Part shown: positions 10,225-16,699 of the stretch, piece by piece
Layout: every line of letters starts with the position of its first letter
How positions within the stretch are numbered: position 1 is the stretch's first letter
From: an uncultured Gammaproteobacteria bacterium
GTDB lineage: Bacteria; Pseudomonadota; Gammaproteobacteria; Enterobacterales; Psychrobiaceae
Reading direction: 5' to 3'
Length of the DNA: 64,000 bases
Assembly (NCBI GenBank): GCA_913060565.1
Contig: CAJXRU010000009.1
Span: 1-64,000, forward strand
Made by a program: the position numbers and the translations under genes
The notes under the pieces: model-generated
The model's database searches: none
What the model was told of the DNA's origin: nothing
What the model saw: the letters and a program-made list of their open reading frames with translations, nothing else

Positions 10225-10414
10225 ATAATTTATATTTAATACAAAAGTACTAAATGTAAACGGAACTCTATCGAAATAACGAATAGATGAATAAGTGTTT
10301 AAATTTAATTAATCGATTAGATTTGCGATAGGAACAAATAAAGAAAATGGCTTCTAAAACCGTTGCTAATAAAAATAAATTTAAATAATTGATTTTACGC
10401 TATTTAGTATGCGC

Positions 10415-11305
10415 TTATTTACACTGACAGTAGTTTGCAGGAATGTTGGATAGTGTGATTTCGAATATGTCGTTAATAGACTCTTGAATGCAAAGCTCAC
10501 CTACTTCCTTGCTCTGTCGCGTTATCACATTGGTATAATTTTCAGCGAGATTCATTAGCTGTTGTCTCATTTCAATAAACTCAGCCGGCCAAGTGTCTTG
10601 TGATTTAATATTTTCTAATGTGCGAAATTCATAATAGAGGGTTCTACGTTTTTCATGTTGTTGCATTAGGCCTGAACGATGAACAACCATCGGGTTATGA
10701 ACAACAATATCACCTGCTTGCACATCAAATTCAGTGAGTTGACCTAATGGTTTGCCTCCATGAATAAGACCGCAAATATCTTGCTTTTCATTATGAGTAC
10801 CAGGAATAAATTGCACGTTACCATCACCAACTTGACTGTCGTCCAGATAAATACCAATGGTAATGATTGAATGAGTACTGCTGCTTTCAATAAAATCTTG
10901 ATGCCATGGAATTTCTGCCTGACTAAGTGCTTGCTTAAATATCATCATTTCAGCAGTTGGCAATGCGTCTTCACTGCATAATACTGATTTTATATGGTTT
11001 AACTGATCGCTCGTTAACAGCGCCAGTAGCGACAATGGTGCGTGTCGATGAATATGCTTAATTCGATGTAATACTGGCGTGAAAAGCTCTAGAGATATAT
11101 TGGAATCATCAAATAATGGCTTGTTTTGTCGTGACAGCGCCTGTTTTTCTAATGAATCAGCGATATCTCGCAGCAGGGCCAATTGCTGCTTATCCATTAC
11201 ATTCTTGAGATGTAAAACACCATTGTTGTGAAACTGCTTTATCTGCTCTTTAGTAATCATTGTTTTATCAAAGTGATTGAATTTGCTTTGATTATTATTC
11301 ACCAT
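10415..11305 (-). CDS. Phytanoyl-CoA dioxygenase (PhyH) family Fe(II)/2-oxoglutarate oxygenase
   Basis: 296 aa. The PhyH iron site is visible as HQD in EIPWHQDFIESS with the distal His in VVHRSG; nearby Arg residues (KRRTLYYEFR) fit 2-oxoglutarate binding, and FIPGTHNEK is typical of the family. Such enzymes hydroxylate small molecules, acyl chains or peptide side chains. It is divergent from the borosin methyltransferase with 32 bp between starts (77 bp if ATG 11260, MITKEQIKQF, is used; neither start has a good Shine-Dalgarno). The position makes it a candidate tailoring enzyme for the borosin peptide, but that is inference. Confidence 0.82.
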   Translation of the reverse strand: MVNNNQSKFNHFDKTMITKEQIKQFHNNGVLHLKNVMDKQQLALLRDIADSLEKQALSRQNKPLFDDSNISLELFTPVLHRIKHIHRHAPLSLLALLTSDQLNHIKSVLCSEDALPTAEMMIFKQALSQAEIPWHQDFIESSSTHSIITIGIYLDDSQVGDGNVQFIPGTHNEKQDICGLIHGGKPLGQLTEFDVQAGDIVVHNPMVVHRSGLMQQHEKRRTLYYEFRTLENIKSQDTWPAEFIEMRQQLMNLAENYTNVITRQSKEVGELCIQESINDIFEITLSNIPANYCQCK

Positions 11306-11337
11306 TAGTCATCACTTTAAAACATTAGAATAAAAAC

Positions 11338-12156
11338 ATGGAAAAAAAAGGTTCACTAGATGTAGTAGGGATTGGGTTAAGGGCTGGTGGAGATGTATGT
11401 GTTTCAGCCAAAGCTTACATAGAACAAGCTGACACCGTTTTAATCGTTGTTCCGGATTCATTTTCTAAAAACTGGCTCGCTACCCTTAATTCAAATGTTC
11501 AAGACTTAACAAATCTGTATCAACAAGGGAAGTCGCGAGCAAAAACATATCATGAAATGACTCAAAAGATCGTTGATGAAGTAAAAAGTGGACAAAAAGT
11601 TTGTGCCGTATTTTATGGTCATCCCGGTGTCTTTGTTAATGCCAGCCATCAAGCAATTAAAAGCCTTAAGAGTGAAGGGTTTCGAGCCCAAATGTTACCA
11701 GGGATTTCAGCAGAAGATTGGCTATTTTCAGATTTGAATATAGATCCAGGCACACATGGTTGTATGAGCATTGAAGCGACTCAATTCTTGCTATATGAAC
11801 GCCCTCATGACATCTATGCCTATACGATTTTATGGCAAATTGGACTCATTGGCGATCATACTCTAGCCCTATCGAAAACAAACCAATATCACCAAGGGTT
11901 AACATTACTCAAGTCAAAGTTGTTACGTGACTTTCCACTAGATCATGAATTAATAATTTACGAAGCATCAACACTATCAATTATTTCACCGCGCATTGAA
12001 CGGCTTTCTTTGAATGAGCTAACTGACGTAAAACTCACTGCCGCGTCGACACTCGTTATTCCACCAATATCAGATGCACCATTCAATCTAGAGATTTTGG
12101 CAGCATTAAATTTATCAAAAGATGATATAAAAGAACCATTAAAGATTGACGAGTAA
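11338..12156 (+). CDS. Split-borosin peptide alpha-N-methyltransferase (SonM/OphMA-like)
   Basis: 272-aa SAM-dependent enzyme of the tetrapyrrole-methylase fold, recognised as a borosin backbone N-methyltransferase rather than a corrin enzyme. Signature segments match the fungal OphMA methyltransferase domain: VCAVFYGHPGVFV, then GFRAQMLPGISAEDWLF, and IDPGTHGCM. The OphMA catalytic residues Y66, R72, Y76 and Y98 correspond with one constant offset to Y61, R67, Y71 (in YQQGKSRAKTY) and Y93. In OphMA the substrate is fused to the enzyme; here the protein stops after the methyltransferase domain and a separate 71-aa precursor gene follows 67 bp later, the split arrangement known from Shewanella SonM/SonA. 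No strong Shine-Dalgarno precedes the ATG, so it may be translated less than the precursor. Confidence 0.93.
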   Translation: MEKKGSLDVVGIGLRAGGDVCVSAKAYIEQADTVLIVVPDSFSKNWLATLNSNVQDLTNLYQQGKSRAKTYHEMTQKIVDEVKSGQKVCAVFYGHPGVFVNASHQAIKSLKSEGFRAQMLPGISAEDWLFSDLNIDPGTHGCMSIEATQFLLYERPHDIYAYTILWQIGLIGDHTLALSKTNQYHQGLTLLKSKLLRDFPLDHELIIYEASTLSIISPRIERLSLNELTDVKLTAASTLVIPPISDAPFNLEILAALNLSKDDIKEPLKIDE

Positions 12157-12223
12157 TAATTTTACATTAATATCGAGCATGCTTTACACATCTAAACAAT
12201 AATTATTTTGATAGGAAATCAAC

Positions 12224-12439
12224 ATGTCAGATAAACTCGTCGAATACATTTTAGAAATTAACGCTAATCCAGAGTTATTAGAAAAACATATGGATAATCC
12301 AGCTGAAAGTGCTAGTGATTACGGCTTACCCGCTGAAGACGTTGAGTTAATTGCTAATGATGATAAAGAAGCCATCAAAAAGCGCCTAGAGTCGCAAAAT
12401 TATGATGTAAAAGGGATGATGCTTGCTTTACACTCGTAA
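12224..12439 (+). CDS. Split-borosin precursor peptide (SonA-like)
   Basis: 71-aa peptide, the probable substrate of the adjacent methyltransferase. Residues 1-about 52 form a predicted all-helical borosin-binding domain (LVEYILEINANPELLEKHM, then NPAESASDYGLPAEDVELI) comparable to the leader of Shewanella SonA in length and in the L-x(n)-NP-x(n)-GL pattern. The C-terminal tail after a polar linker (SQNYDVKGMMLALHS, residues 57-71) is short and hydrophobic and is the likely core; the exact methylated residues cannot be told. AGGA 8-9 bases ahead of the ATG gives a strong ribosome site, consistent with excess precursor over enzyme. Nif11-type leaders look superficially similar, but the pairing with a borosin methyltransferase decides the call. 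Confidence 0.88.
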   Translation: MSDKLVEYILEINANPELLEKHMDNPAESASDYGLPAEDVELIANDDKEAIKKRLESQNYDVKGMMLALHS

Positions 12440-12473
12440 TTTTTAAATAAAACGAAAAACCTAGGTATCTCTT

Positions 12474-15293
12474 ATGCACCAAATAGTTAAGAAAGTAGCT
12501 GTATTTTTAACACTTTTTTGGTGCATTCAGGCAAATGCCTTCTTTGCTTCAACCATAGATAGTCGTCTTGATGAATTAGATAAATTATCGTGGACCAATA
12601 TTCCAAAAGCTCTCGAATTAGCTGAAGCGCTTAAAAACGAACTCAAAACCTCTCCTAACGATTATGCCCTAGCCAGACTATATAACTTAATTGGTTACAC
12701 ATCGTTACTCAATAGAGATTACAAAAACGCTTATAATCACATTAGCTTAGCCAAAGGTTATGCTGATAAATCTGGCAGCCTCAGAGAGCAAGCAGAGTCC
12801 AAGCGGTTATTGGCATCACTTTATGTCATGACAAATATGCTTCATGAAAGCTTGCCAATATTCCTTGAAGCGTTGGCACTGCATAAAGAAATAGAATCAG
12901 ATAAAGTATTTGAAACGCTACAAGGGATAAGCCTCTATTATCGTTCTATCGGAGATTTTGATAAATATTTAGAATACGGAAATCGACTCTTAAATCACCC
13001 TAGCGCTCAATCAGAAAATCAATTACGTGGCTTAGCTGAATACACCGTCGGCGAAGCGTTATTAAAATTGGGCAAATATGAACAAGCAAGAGTCCATATT
13101 AATCACACGATTCGAATACTTGAAAAAGTGTCATCGACGTGGGTGAGTGAGGGCTATGTCACGCTCGCGGAAATAGAGTTTGCGACTAACAATTTACCAA
13201 AAGCACTTGAGACAGTTAAACAAAGTAAAAAAATAGCCGAACAAGACAAGTATTATCTAGCGAGTTTGCAAGCTGAATTGCTAACTGCTGATATTTTACA
13301 AGCGCTTGATCGCCAAGAGGAAGCAATAACGTCATTAGAAGCCGCTATCGAACAGGCGGTTTATCACTCAGATAAAGCAACAGAGCAAAAAGCTAACCTC
13401 GCATTAGCCCAACTTTATGAAAATAGCGACCACCCCCAATTGGCACTGAATTTTTATAAAGAATATAAAAAGAATACAGATGACTTAGCTGAAAAAGCCC
13501 AAGAAACACAGTCGTCTTTTTACAATGCACAGTTGAACCTTGAGCACAAAGAACAACAAATCACTCAACTTGAAGCAACTCAAGCTCTGCAACAACTCGA
13601 ACTGTCACAAAAAGAAAAAACAGAACAACTACGTGATTCAATTCTCGCTTTACTAGTCATTATTTTAGTGTCATTAGCCTATTATGTCGTTCATACTAAA
13701 CGCACTAAAAACCGCATGAAAGCGTTGGCACAAGAAGCCAATTTGGCGAACAAAGCTAAAAGTAATTTCTTGGCCAAAATGAGCCATGAAATCCGCACGC
13801 CAATGAATGCCATTATAGGCCTTAGTCAATTAGCGTTAAATGCAAAGCTTAGCCCTAAGCAACGTGAAAATATTTCGATGGTGCATGCGTCTTCTCAGTC
13901 ATTACTCACCTTATTAAACGACATTCTAGATTTTTCAAAAATTGAAGCTAAAAAACTCGAACTAGAGCATGCTGATTTTTTAGTAAACAATTCAATTCAA
14001 CGGCTTCTCAATGTTTGTAGTTTTAGTGCCGATGAGAAACAGCTCAAGCTTAATGTTCGTATTGAAAATGATGTTCCTACGTCGTTAACTGGCGACGCGC
14101 TTCGTCTTGAACAAATACTCATTAATCTCGTTAATAATGCGATTAAGTTCACCGAGCAAGGTGATATCAATATTGTCGTGTCACTCGTTAAACAACACGA
14201 TAATATCAATACATTGAAGTTTTCGGTAACAGATGAAGGTATTGGCATTGGCGAAGAGCAGCTACAACGTCTGTTCAAAGCGTTTTCACAAGCTGATGTA
14301 TCCGTCACCAGACGTTATGGTGGCAGTGGTTTAGGTCTTACTATTTGTAAAGAACTCGTTGAGTTGATGAATGGCGCTATCAGTGTCGAAAGTGAACTAG
14401 GTAAAGGCTCCACATTTAGCTTTACAGTAGATATCGCCACCAGCAAAACGCTAACGGCTCAACTAACAAACGCTGATTTAAGTAACCTCAACAACCTTAA
14501 AATACTCATTGTTGATGATAGTAAAAGTTCCCGTACATTATTGTCTGAATCGTTAATTGATCTTGGTCTTGAATGCGCACAAGCGCGCAGCGGTATAGAA
14601 GCGTTAGAGCAAATCAAAGATGCTATAGATACTAAATCACCGTATGACATTGTATTGATGGACTGGCGTATGCCTGGTCTTGATGGTTTAGAAACCATTC
14701 GCATCATCAATCAGGTCGTTAATGAGCAGCTACCGAAATTCATTTTAGTATCGTCATTTGATAAAAGTGATGCCGTTAAACTTAGCCGTCATTTACCGAT
14801 TGAAGATGTCCTTGAGAAGCCAGTTAAGCCATCTCAATTAACCAGCAGCTTGCTGACTATTGTTAATGGAAAGCAACGACAAGTTGTGCCAATGTCGCCA
14901 TCACCGACATCCATCATTAGACGAGACTTCTCAAAAGTTAAACTGCTCATCGCAGAAGACAACAAAATAAACCAAAAAGTGATTTTAGGCTTTTTATCTG
15001 ACACCAATGCCACCGTTGATATTGTTTCAAATGGCGTAGAAGCGGTTGAAAAAGCAAAGAATAATGACTATCACATCATTTTAATGGATGTTCAGATGCC
15101 TGAAATGGATGGTTTAACAGCCACCAAACTTATTAGAGAATTTGATCTCAACACACCAATTATGGCCATGACGGCACACAGCTTGCCAGAAGACATAGAG
15201 CAGAGCATGGCAGCCGGCATGAACGAGCATCTCACTAAACCTATCAATGCCAACTTGCTCATTGAAACCATTACTAAGAAAATCAGTATTTAA
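12474..15293 (+). CDS. TPR-domain hybrid sensor histidine kinase with two receiver domains
   Basis: 939 aa. Order: signal peptide (1-24), periplasmic TPR array (about 30-340), coiled coil (345-385), one membrane helix (387-407), HisKA with phospho-accepting His in [16 protein letters not shown] (about 438), HATPase_c with [12 protein letters not shown], then receiver 1 (about 675-795, KILIVDDS, Asp in [11 protein letters not shown]) and receiver 2 (about 822-937, KLLIAEDN, Asp in [11 protein letters not shown]). No Hpt domain is attached. It starts 34 bp after the borosin precursor with no terminator in between, so co-transcription is likely. The TPR sensor suggests it reads a periplasmic protein or peptide; the borosin product as ligand is speculation. 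Confidence 0.92.
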
Positions 15294-15457
15294 CAGAAAA
15301 ACCAAACCGTAACTTCATGAATAAAAAGTTATTACTTTTTTATACACTCTACGCAAATTTGCTGATAAGGTTATTTAATAATCTATCATTTGTATGATGT
15401 CGACCGGACATTTGGCAAACCAAATGGACATTGGCTAGTAGTTTCATGGAGAAAGAA

Positions 15458-15844
15458 ATGACAACCCCCTTAAATATCCTTGTAGTAGACGACTCTCTTA
15501 GCATGCGTATTATTGCCACGCAAATTATCGAAGGTATTGGCCACAATATAGTTGCGCAAGCAGAGAACGGCAAAGAAGCCCTTAAGGCCTATATGGAACA
15601 TCGTCCAGACATCGTGTTACTTGATCTTGTTATGCCAGTATTTGACGGCAAGAAAACCCTCAAGAAATTGATGCAGGTCGATCCACAGGCGAAGGTTGTT
15701 ATTTGTAGCTCATTAGGCTCAGAAGGCGACATTGAATATTGCTTAAACGAAGGTGCGGCTTTTTATTTGCAAAAGCCATACGAAGAACAAGCCTTTGAAA
15801 CCGCTTTCGAAAGCATTACTACTAACACATCGCCAATTGCGTAA
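15458..15844 (+). CDS. CheY-like single-domain response regulator
   Basis: 128-aa stand-alone receiver: acidic pocket VVDDS, phospho-acceptor Asp in IVLLDLVMPVFDG, switch residue in VVICSS, and the conserved Lys in YLQKPY. No output domain is attached, so it signals by protein contact. The frame opens at TTG 15431, but ATG 15458 has GGAGAAAGA at the right distance. It lies 165 bp after the hybrid kinase and 9 bp before a CheX-type phosphatase, which together suggest a phosphorelay with its own switch-off enzyme. Confidence 0.93.
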   Translation: MTTPLNILVVDDSLSMRIIATQIIEGIGHNIVAQAENGKEALKAYMEHRPDIVLLDLVMPVFDGKKTLKKLMQVDPQAKVVICSSLGSEGDIEYCLNEGAAFYLQKPYEEQAFETAFESITTNTSPIA

Positions 15845-15853
15845 GGGATTACC

Positions 15854-16699
15854 ATGTCGAATAAATTTTTAGGTCAATTCCTGCTAGAGAAAGGAATCAT
15901 TACGCCAGCACAACTATTAAAAGCGCTTGAATTACAAAAAGAATTCAATCCAAGTTTAGGTCAACTAGCCATTAACCAAGGTTATATCGATAATGACGCG
16001 GCCAATAAAATAAATTTAGAACAACAGCGCACTGACCAGCGCTTTGGTGATCTCGCCATTAGCTTAGGCTATATGACGTTGACTCAAGTTGATGAGCTAT
16101 TTAGTGTGCAGCAAAGCACCAGAAAATTCTTTGGCGAGATTCTTGTCGAGCAAGGGTTTATTAATCAAGCAATGCTTGAAGATCAACTAAAAGAACATCA
16201 AGCGCTAAAGCAACAAGCAGAGTTATCGCTAGACAATGCAATTAGCAATCATCCACATCACGCACTCATTACTAACACCTTAGAAACATTCGTGAAGTCA
16301 TTTACCCGTATTCCGAAGATCCCAACACAGGTGTCAAATGTAATCACACAAATACCAGCATTAACGAATGATCAATATATCATTTCTCAACAAGCTAATT
16401 TGCCGCAAACATTTAAAATTGGCGTTATCGCACCAAGCGAATTAATGAAAACGTTAGGCACTAGCTTTTTAGGTTTTGACACCTCAAGCAATGAAGCATT
16501 GTATATTGATGCCGTAAGTGAGTTGCTCAATATCATTTTAGGAAATGTGCTGGTTATTAACGGTGAACAACAAACTGAACTGAGTCCTCCGCAAGTTGAG
16601 CGCAACAGTGATGATATTAGTCAATCATTTACCGAGTTTTTTGGCGTAGAAATGTCAGCAGGCGGCCACGATTTTAGCGTGTTTTTCATGTACAACTAA
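15854..16699 (+). CDS. CheX-family phosphatase with N-terminal GspE-type repeats
   Basis: 281 aa. Residues 1-about 115 contain repeated segments of the type II secretion GspE/MshE N-terminal kind (FLLEKGIITPAQLLKALELQ, LAISLGYMTLTQVDELF, ILVEQGFINQAMLEDQL). After a linker, residues about 140-281 form a CheX-like domain with the phosphatase motif E-x-x-N in SELLNIILGNVL. CheX-type proteins dephosphorylate CheY-like regulators; the response regulator gene ends 9 bp upstream, so that protein is the obvious partner. The GspE-type repeats bind c-di-GMP in MshE; whether these retain the binding residues is uncertain. Confidence 0.8.
   Translation: MSNKFLGQFLLEKGIITPAQLLKALELQKEFNPSLGQLAINQGYIDNDAANKINLEQQRTDQRFGDLAISLGYMTLTQVDELFSVQQSTRKFFGEILVEQGFINQAMLEDQLKEHQALKQQAELSLDNAISNHPHHALITNTLETFVKSFTRIPKIPTQVSNVITQIPALTNDQYIISQQANLPQTFKIGVIAPSELMKTLGTSFLGFDTSSNEALYIDAVSELLNIILGNVLVINGEQQTELSPPQVERNSDDISQSFTEFFGVEMSAGGHDFSVFFMYN

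Follow-up and report, generated by a model that had tools for sequence, protein, structure and literature searches.

A borosin-type methyltransferase gene followed by a small gene for a separate precursor raises the question of what a bacterium does with the resulting peptide. To our knowledge, the use that bacteria make of split borosin peptides is still open, and one such product has reportedly been described, in work by Crone from 2023. That the class exists, as an earlier note on this DNA had said, is documented in the accessible parts of three papers (PMC8429565, PMC11285071, PMC11395268). According to the part available of the first of these, the 2021 discovery paper, no split borosin pathway had then been tied to a final natural product.

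The locus analyzed here lies in a stretch of 64,000 nucleotides (the window), which is contig C9 of a 4.35-Mb genome. In the genome collection used, the family consists of a single genus with nine genomes, and searches at the genus and the family level cover the same nine. Our main reading is that the methyltransferase gene borM, the precursor gene borA and a gene for a TPR hybrid histidine kinase form a three-gene peptide-signalling cassette; sensing of the peptide is inferred, and we give this reading a probability of roughly 0.55. The features are as follows:

10254..13515, no strand: divergent stretch with PhyH, borM, borA and the sensor domain (DNA alignments to G001 and G007)
10415..11305, reverse strand: PhyH-family Fe/2-oxoglutarate dioxygenase, transcribed divergently (PF05721, 6.3e-18; in 2/4 congeneric loci)
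11338..12156, forward strand: borM, predicted borosin peptide-backbone alpha-N-methyltransferase, 272 aa (SonM match; PF00590, 1e-14; SonM residues kept)
12224..12439, forward strand: borA, separate borosin precursor, 71 aa (homologues at the same place in relatives, AF2 model, SonA ranking in the PDB)
12224..12394, forward strand: borA leader, predicted five-helix borosin-binding domain, residues 1-57 (modelled helices 4-14, 16-24, 26-33, 37-44 and 48-57)
12407..12436, forward strand: presumed borA core, residues 62-71, VKGMMLALHS (inferred from SonA core 62-71; low-confidence modelled helix)
12474..15293, forward strand: TPR-sensor hybrid histidine kinase, 939 aa (Pfam TPR_12, HisKA, HATPase_c and two Response_reg stretches)
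12549..13637, forward strand: TPR sensor domain of the kinase, residues 26-388 (identity drop against G007, AF2, PDB matches)
15431..15844, forward strand: single-domain response regulator adjoining the cassette (PF00072 only)
15854..16699, forward strand: CheX-like protein adjoining the cassette (PF13690, 2.5e-6; in 3/6 other congeneric genomes searched)

Organization of the locus

The three genes of the cassette are located on the same (forward) strand with intergenic gaps of 67 bp between borM and borA and 34 bp between borA and the kinase gene. The first two were found as the earlier note had reported them, as open frames of 272 and 71 aa with the second starting 67 bp past the first stop. 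The adjoining response regulator (15431..15844) is a possible, unproven partner of the cassette kinase. It has no DNA-binding domain, and in the stretches fetched from G004, G005 and G006 it occurs together with the CheX-like protein in the absence of PhyH, borM, borA and the TPR kinase. No transporter or protease gene was seen within the cassette and Rfam gave zero matches in the window at gathering scores. Pattern scans for promoters (23 vs 17.5, sd 3.6) and terminators (3 vs 3.6) were close to the level of shuffled sequence and were left unused.

The methyltransferase and its precursor

In a comparison with PDB sequences, the best solved relative of BorM was SonM (E 1.6e-66), and chains of the OphMA type (dbOphM, OphA, MroMA) matched with E 8e-53 to 2e-47. 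The signature stretches VCAVFYGHPGVFV and MLPGISAEDWLF, on which the assignment to the borosins had originally been based, are present in the 272-aa frame, as are the four residues named with them: Y61, R67, Y71 and Y93, which align to Y58, R67, Y71 and Y93 of SonM. F99, E146 and W166 are likewise kept in the pairwise alignment, in which the residue offset between BorM and SonM is +3 ahead of a 3-residue gap and 0 past it; the constant offset given in the earlier note refers to OphMA. Substitutions were found at the SonM positions E173 (D in BorM), Q178 (L), F179 (S), Q55 (T) and R68 (A). The roles of the SAM- and core-binding residues of SonM were taken from the accessible part of PMC8429565. 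In NCBIfam, neither BorM nor BorA reached any family cut-off. Sequence and fold place BorM with SonM among the backbone N-methyltransferases; its methylation activity is a prediction.

For BorA alone the sequence match to SonA was weak (E 0.38-0.77), ranking below two unrelated chains (0.032 and 0.18), and no Pfam family was above the cut-off for the 71-aa protein. Despite this marginal match, the identity of the frame as a precursor is settled by its relatives behind borM: frames 48-49% identical to BorA follow borM in the congeners G001, G002 and G007, and weaker relatives are found at this place in Alteromonas. An AF2 model built from ten sequences (pLDDT 80.5) displayed five helices and a low-confidence helical tail. 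Searching 350,542 PDB chains with this model using Foldseek, places 1-29 were all occupied by SonA-length chains of SonM-SonA entries (E 0.55-2.6, probability up to 0.97), with DesB next and OphA from place 38. These E-values are not significant on their own, and we consider the ranking of the SonA chains in first position to be the telling part. The relatives at the same place, the five-helix model and this ranking agree with the proposal of the earlier note that the 71-aa protein is a SonA-like precursor with a helical leader. Sequence and fold likewise identify BorA as a discrete precursor in which a leader of the SonA type is followed by a short core at the C-terminus, and the assignment of the locus as a split (type IV-like) borosin pair is supported, with backbone methylation being inferred. 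The core limits follow those of SonA (62-71; PMC8429565, accessible part). Which residues of BorA correspond to the methylation sites of SonA differs between an ungapped alignment to SonA and counting from the C-terminus.

Since BorM matches the superfamily PF00590, it could in principle be a corrin or tetrapyrrole methylase of the CbiE/CobL kind that happens to lie next to an unrelated 71-aa frame, and a better alignment with such enzymes than with SonM was one of the two outcomes that the earlier note had named as a refutation. Corrin methylases in the PDB sequences reached only E>=0.25, compared to 1.6e-66 for SonM, and the precursor fold ranks SonA first. We therefore rejected this candidate, for which practically no room is left, and regard the enzyme as being of the borosin type.

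G001 encodes two tandem precursors with different cores (L045:11664-11858 and L045:11890-12108) behind one methyltransferase. One of them, which is 30% identical to BorA overall, ends KDVKGLMLTIHS, close to the YDVKGMMLALHS of the window, and the other (49% identical to BorA) ends LDTSNAILGFFNQ, as do the precursors of G002 and G007. The PhyH gene is present in the window and in G001 and absent from the stretches of G002 and G007. It tracks the HS-ended core in 4/4 congeneric loci, which is a lead and not a test, and the dioxygenase is a possible second tailoring enzyme.

Two unusual relatives were noticed during the survey. L012:8906-9445, on a MAG contig (JACPFT010000008.1), encodes a borosin-type precursor that has about ten 10-residue cores in tandem (like AAIIKGYAPD) behind its leader, and the next gene downstream encodes an HD-domain (HD-GYP-like) protein with a possible c-di-GMP-related output. 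In L048:600-2516, a borosin-methyltransferase domain is embedded in a 638-aa frame that extends beyond it at both ends and may represent a fusion.

A sensor protein downstream of the precursor

The borM-borA pair is a further case of a known class, and the less expected part of the locus is the kinase gene downstream. The kinase has hydrophobic segments at residues 8-26 and 390-408, giving an architecture of an N-terminal hydrophobic segment, a TPR domain, one transmembrane (TM) segment, HisKA-HATPase and two REC domains; the periplasmic location of the TPR domain is an inference. An AF2 model of residues 1-425 (pLDDT 83.3) showed repeated helices, the last of which is a long one. The first PDB matches of the model were TPR domains of the eukaryotic protein LGN, many of them solved with bound partners, and Rap chains, several with peptides, followed from place 16 and apo NprR at place 34 (identity 12-16%). 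As TPR folds are mutually alike, these matches allow peptide binding but do not show it.

Third genes were surveyed behind 90 borM genes (91 rows minus one duplicate record, L085, which is the same record as L007 and was dropped). The first 20 stretches had been picked before the gene context was known and a further 60 after kinases had been seen downstream of some borM genes, with the aim of covering a range of families. For L085-L087, which belong to the 60, a kinase was already visible in the short versions when they were picked. The stretches cover part, not all, of the order-level borM matches. L012, L054, L062 and L099, where a simple gene caller gave no borM, are outside the counts; L069 and L074, from different genomes, contribute nearly identical borM genes, and the tandem borM genes of L050 have one kinase between them.

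For 76/90 borM genes, the 1.6 kb downstream contain a gene of at least 350 aa on the same strand; these amount to 75 distinct genes including that of the window. These encode 46 GGDEF proteins, 26 histidine kinases and 3 proteins that are neither. The remaining 14 borM genes lack a large downstream gene, 11 of them due to an intervening gene on the opposite strand. With 52 GGDEF and 59 HATPase matches, signal transducers of these kinds make up about 3% of an assumed 3,900 genes in the genome of the window, so their presence in 72/75 third genes is far above chance. A strongly hydrophobic segment near residue 320-440 is present in 72/75, an N-terminal one in 59/75 and both in 56/75; one kinase, that of L097, is multi-TM instead.

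Pfam was run on 18/75 third genes. A clear TPR was detected in 7/8 kinases (the window, L004, L051, L101, L102, L108 and L110), the exception being L104, which is truncated by the contig end. The nine GGDEF proteins were divided equally between a TPR over the cut-off (L055, L057, L120), weak TPR only (L052, L103, L117) and none (L065, L088, L089). The label TPR sensor is hence well founded in the kinase clade, and for the GGDEF proteins it rests in part on inference. The eighteenth protein, a TPR-TM protein without an output domain, occupies the sensor place behind borM and the precursor in L063 (L063:5568-6749).

The earlier note had held that the surroundings of the pair might be new. The kinase, the fact that it is kept with the pair in several families, and the differences between the cassettes of congeners lay beyond what it covered. 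In the literature searched, we found neither a kinase-coupled borosin clade nor a role in signalling described. This literature does not include the subscription papers on split borosin clusters, so priority cannot be claimed for this clade. The link to GGDEF is in print, as this domain is among the borosin architectures in the legend of Figure 1 of PMC11395268, which was available in part.

Distribution and co-inheritance

Matches to borM (E<=1e-20) were detected in 4/9 genomes of the genus, and at the order level in 94/394 sampled genomes and 24/115 genera. Twenty plasmid records carry distant relatives, all below 60% identity. A phage origin was rejected, as no relative was confirmed in viral contigs, searched with patterns derived from a single sequence, and phage records yielded none either.

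The sensor of the window (E<=1e-20) was found in 5/394 order genomes, beside borM every time. Within the genus it is present in 4/4 genomes with borM vs 0/5 without, with the reservation that at most four candidates were scored per genome, so that copies may be missed, and that two of the five borM-less genomes are 82-88% complete. The order of the three genes is kept across several families, with enzymes about 37-50% identical to BorM of the window.

Tree distances of sensor and borM correlated with r 0.81 (n=74 borM genes), compared to permutation maxima of 0.11 for free and 0.38 for within-family shuffling (2000 each). In the midpoint-rooted sensor tree, 25/26 kinase tips cluster together (support 0.98), and the cores that go with them are short and non-acidic. 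A second group combines GGDEF proteins with SonA-type precursors and GGDEF proteins with acidic-tailed, often PAEDE-like precursors, and includes L104 as the 26th kinase tip. Two output changes are enough on either tree, that of the sensor or that of borM. L085, L097 and L107 were excluded from the trees. Relatives with SonA-like precursors, the genus of which is presumably Shewanella, have GGDEF proteins in third place except for L066, whose third gene has a TM segment but no output domain that we could find; the kinase-coupled loci are a separate clade. Beyond the similarity in borM, precursor and sensor similarity were also related (partial rank r 0.26, permutation maximum 0.10, 65 loci). 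Physical linkage alone would explain part of these co-inheritance signals, and neither linkage nor co-inheritance proves that the peptide binds the sensor.

Divergence between species of the genus

Comparing the window to G007, the identity is 43.0% for the TPR domain, 83.8% for the linker, 93.5% for HisKA-HATPase, 86.2% for REC and 53.3% for BorM. The flanks are more conserved, with 85% for the TonB receptor on the left and 95% (response regulator) and 82% (CheX-like protein) on the right, and three genes further right are merely 39-51% alike. Against G001, BorM reaches 60.7% and the sensor 42.4%, compared to 72-99% for the proteins of the left flank. In G002, where the cassette has a different neighbourhood, the values are 55.9% for BorM, 44.9% for the sensor, 74.5% for the kinase domain and 54.4% for REC.

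At the DNA level, the alignments to G001 and G007 both end at 10253, and only patches of similarity follow up to 13516. Similarity resumes inside the kinase gene, at 13516 for 4 kb in G007 and at 13680 in G001, there for the last 119 bp before the contig end. Such limits would also be expected of a mobile or recombining island, in which the co-evolution is merely apparent because the genes are inherited as one block, and the sharp left limit, the return of similarity near 13516 and the different neighbourhood in G002 fit this idea. If the genes were merely linked and had no joint function, their order should decay, yet the three-gene order persists across several families, and the sensor is present in every borM-carrying genome of the genus and was found in none of the others among the candidates scored. 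We consider the island an improbable explanation.

Divergent sensors over a conserved output were also seen in GGDEF proteins of other loci. In L088/L089, the output is 88%, the sensor 28% and borM 81% identical, and in L120/L121 the values are 85%, 21% and 65%, in both cases resembling an exchange of the sensor half. The borM value of L088/L089 speaks against strict matching, since a change in the sensor need not be accompanied by one in borM. L045, L063, L066, L085, L097 and L107 were excluded from this comparison of pair identities.

As controls, kinases of G000 and G007 were paired as reciprocal best matches among 15 + 15 kinase loci, with orthology resting only on reciprocity within those 30 loci. 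Two queries were not reciprocal. The 13 pairs obtained are that of the window, 9 controls with a kinase domain identity of at least 69% and 3 below this value (L130, L144, L152), which were set aside. In 8/9 controls the sensor is at most 12 points below the kinase domain. The control pair L138/L131 (L155:2972-5794(-) and L156:8185-10995(+)) has a sensor identity of 41% with a kinase domain identity of 86%; both are TPR hybrid kinases by Pfam, and no borM was found in the stretches fetched around them. A divergent sensor over a conserved kinase is uncommon among the kinases, yet it is common to the cassette and to a borosin-free TPR kinase. This equal divergence leaves less weight for the pattern as evidence of a borosin receptor, and it led us to lower our estimate for peptide sensing slightly.

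It adds to the case for a more conventional explanation, namely an ordinary split borosin product, for instance an antagonist peptide or a metal ligand, with a TPR kinase that regulates production or reports on the target and does not read the peptide. RiPP clusters are commonly regulated by two-component systems, a kinase or GGDEF output could set the timing of peptide production, and the gene linkage fits equally well. Less easily accommodated are the signal transducers in 72/75 third genes although the type of output varies, the tracking of precursor similarity by sensor similarity, and the lack of any further gene that we saw kept across the compared loci besides enzyme, precursor and third gene, a comparison that was not exhaustive. 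An ordinary product is a possibility that we do not dismiss but find rather doubtful.

Comparison with known systems

The closest described system is the type IV split borosin SonM-SonA of Shewanella oneidensis (PMC8429565, accessible part), which shares with the window a discrete N-methyltransferase and an adjacent precursor of about 70 aa with a five-helix leader and a short core. The window differs in its core, VKGMMLALHS, and in the TPR hybrid histidine kinase encoded downstream.

A second likeness is to comQXPA, where enzyme, precursor, histidine kinase and response regulator are also encoded next to one another on one strand and where the N-terminal sensor half of the kinase is far more variable than the cytoplasmic half (PMC4008528, accessible part). 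The comparison of the window with G007 resembles this (43 vs 93.5%), that with G002 does so less (45 vs 74.5%), and one of nine control kinase pairs, also TPR, gives a similar picture (41 vs 86%). The window has a methyltransferase instead of an isoprenyl transferase, a TPR instead of a multi-TM sensor and no DNA-binding response regulator. With this enzyme and a response regulator without any other domain, the locus does not qualify as comQXPA proper and is no member of that family. It may work like comQXPA, by analogy and not by homology.

The TPR domain is shared with the Rap/NprR (RRNPP) peptide receptors; these are cytoplasmic proteins and no membrane kinases. RcbAB of Vibrio vulnificus offers another likeness, a GGDEF protein whose output is governed by a TPR domain. 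There the partner is a TPR protein, and the part of PMC12282931 that was available mentions no borosin genes.

A model for peptide sensing

In the mechanism that we propose for the cassette, the BorA leader would dock on BorM, which would then methylate backbone amides of the core, with candidates within M65-L69; this step is inferred, and we are nearly certain of it. The methylated core would next be freed, reach the periplasm or the outside, bind the TPR domain of the kinase and alter the phosphorelay. For release and sensing, also inferred, we see an even chance. How the peptide would be exported is speculative: backbone methylation may aid membrane crossing, membrane permeability being among the effects of this modification in the abstract of PMC8429565, or housekeeping systems may act. 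It is equally speculative that the PhyH oxygenase further modifies the HS-ended core. The species-specific alleles of enzyme, precursor and sensor would fit private signal-receptor pairs.

A wider generalization is that bacterial split borosins are pheromones, i.e. N-methylated peptides read by a TPR receptor of the same cassette, with exchangeable outputs (a kinase in one clade, a diguanylate cyclase in others). In this genus, matched alleles of signal, enzyme and receptor domain would be swapped upstream of a kinase that is itself conserved, which would give Gram-negative bacteria a counterpart of comQXPA that uses a RiPP methyltransferase. We offer this only tentatively, as a conjecture that may well fail.

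Implications

If peptide sensing by the cassette is true, it would bring a new chemistry and a receptor architecture based on TPR into Gram-negative peptide signalling, and the matched peptide-receptor alleles would be usable in engineering. With a sensor encoded beside most precursors, the function of the peptides becomes directly testable via the kinase or c-di-GMP output. That the kinase is inherited together with the borosin pair in related bacteria points to a possible role of these peptides, whose purpose is unknown, as signals read by the cells.
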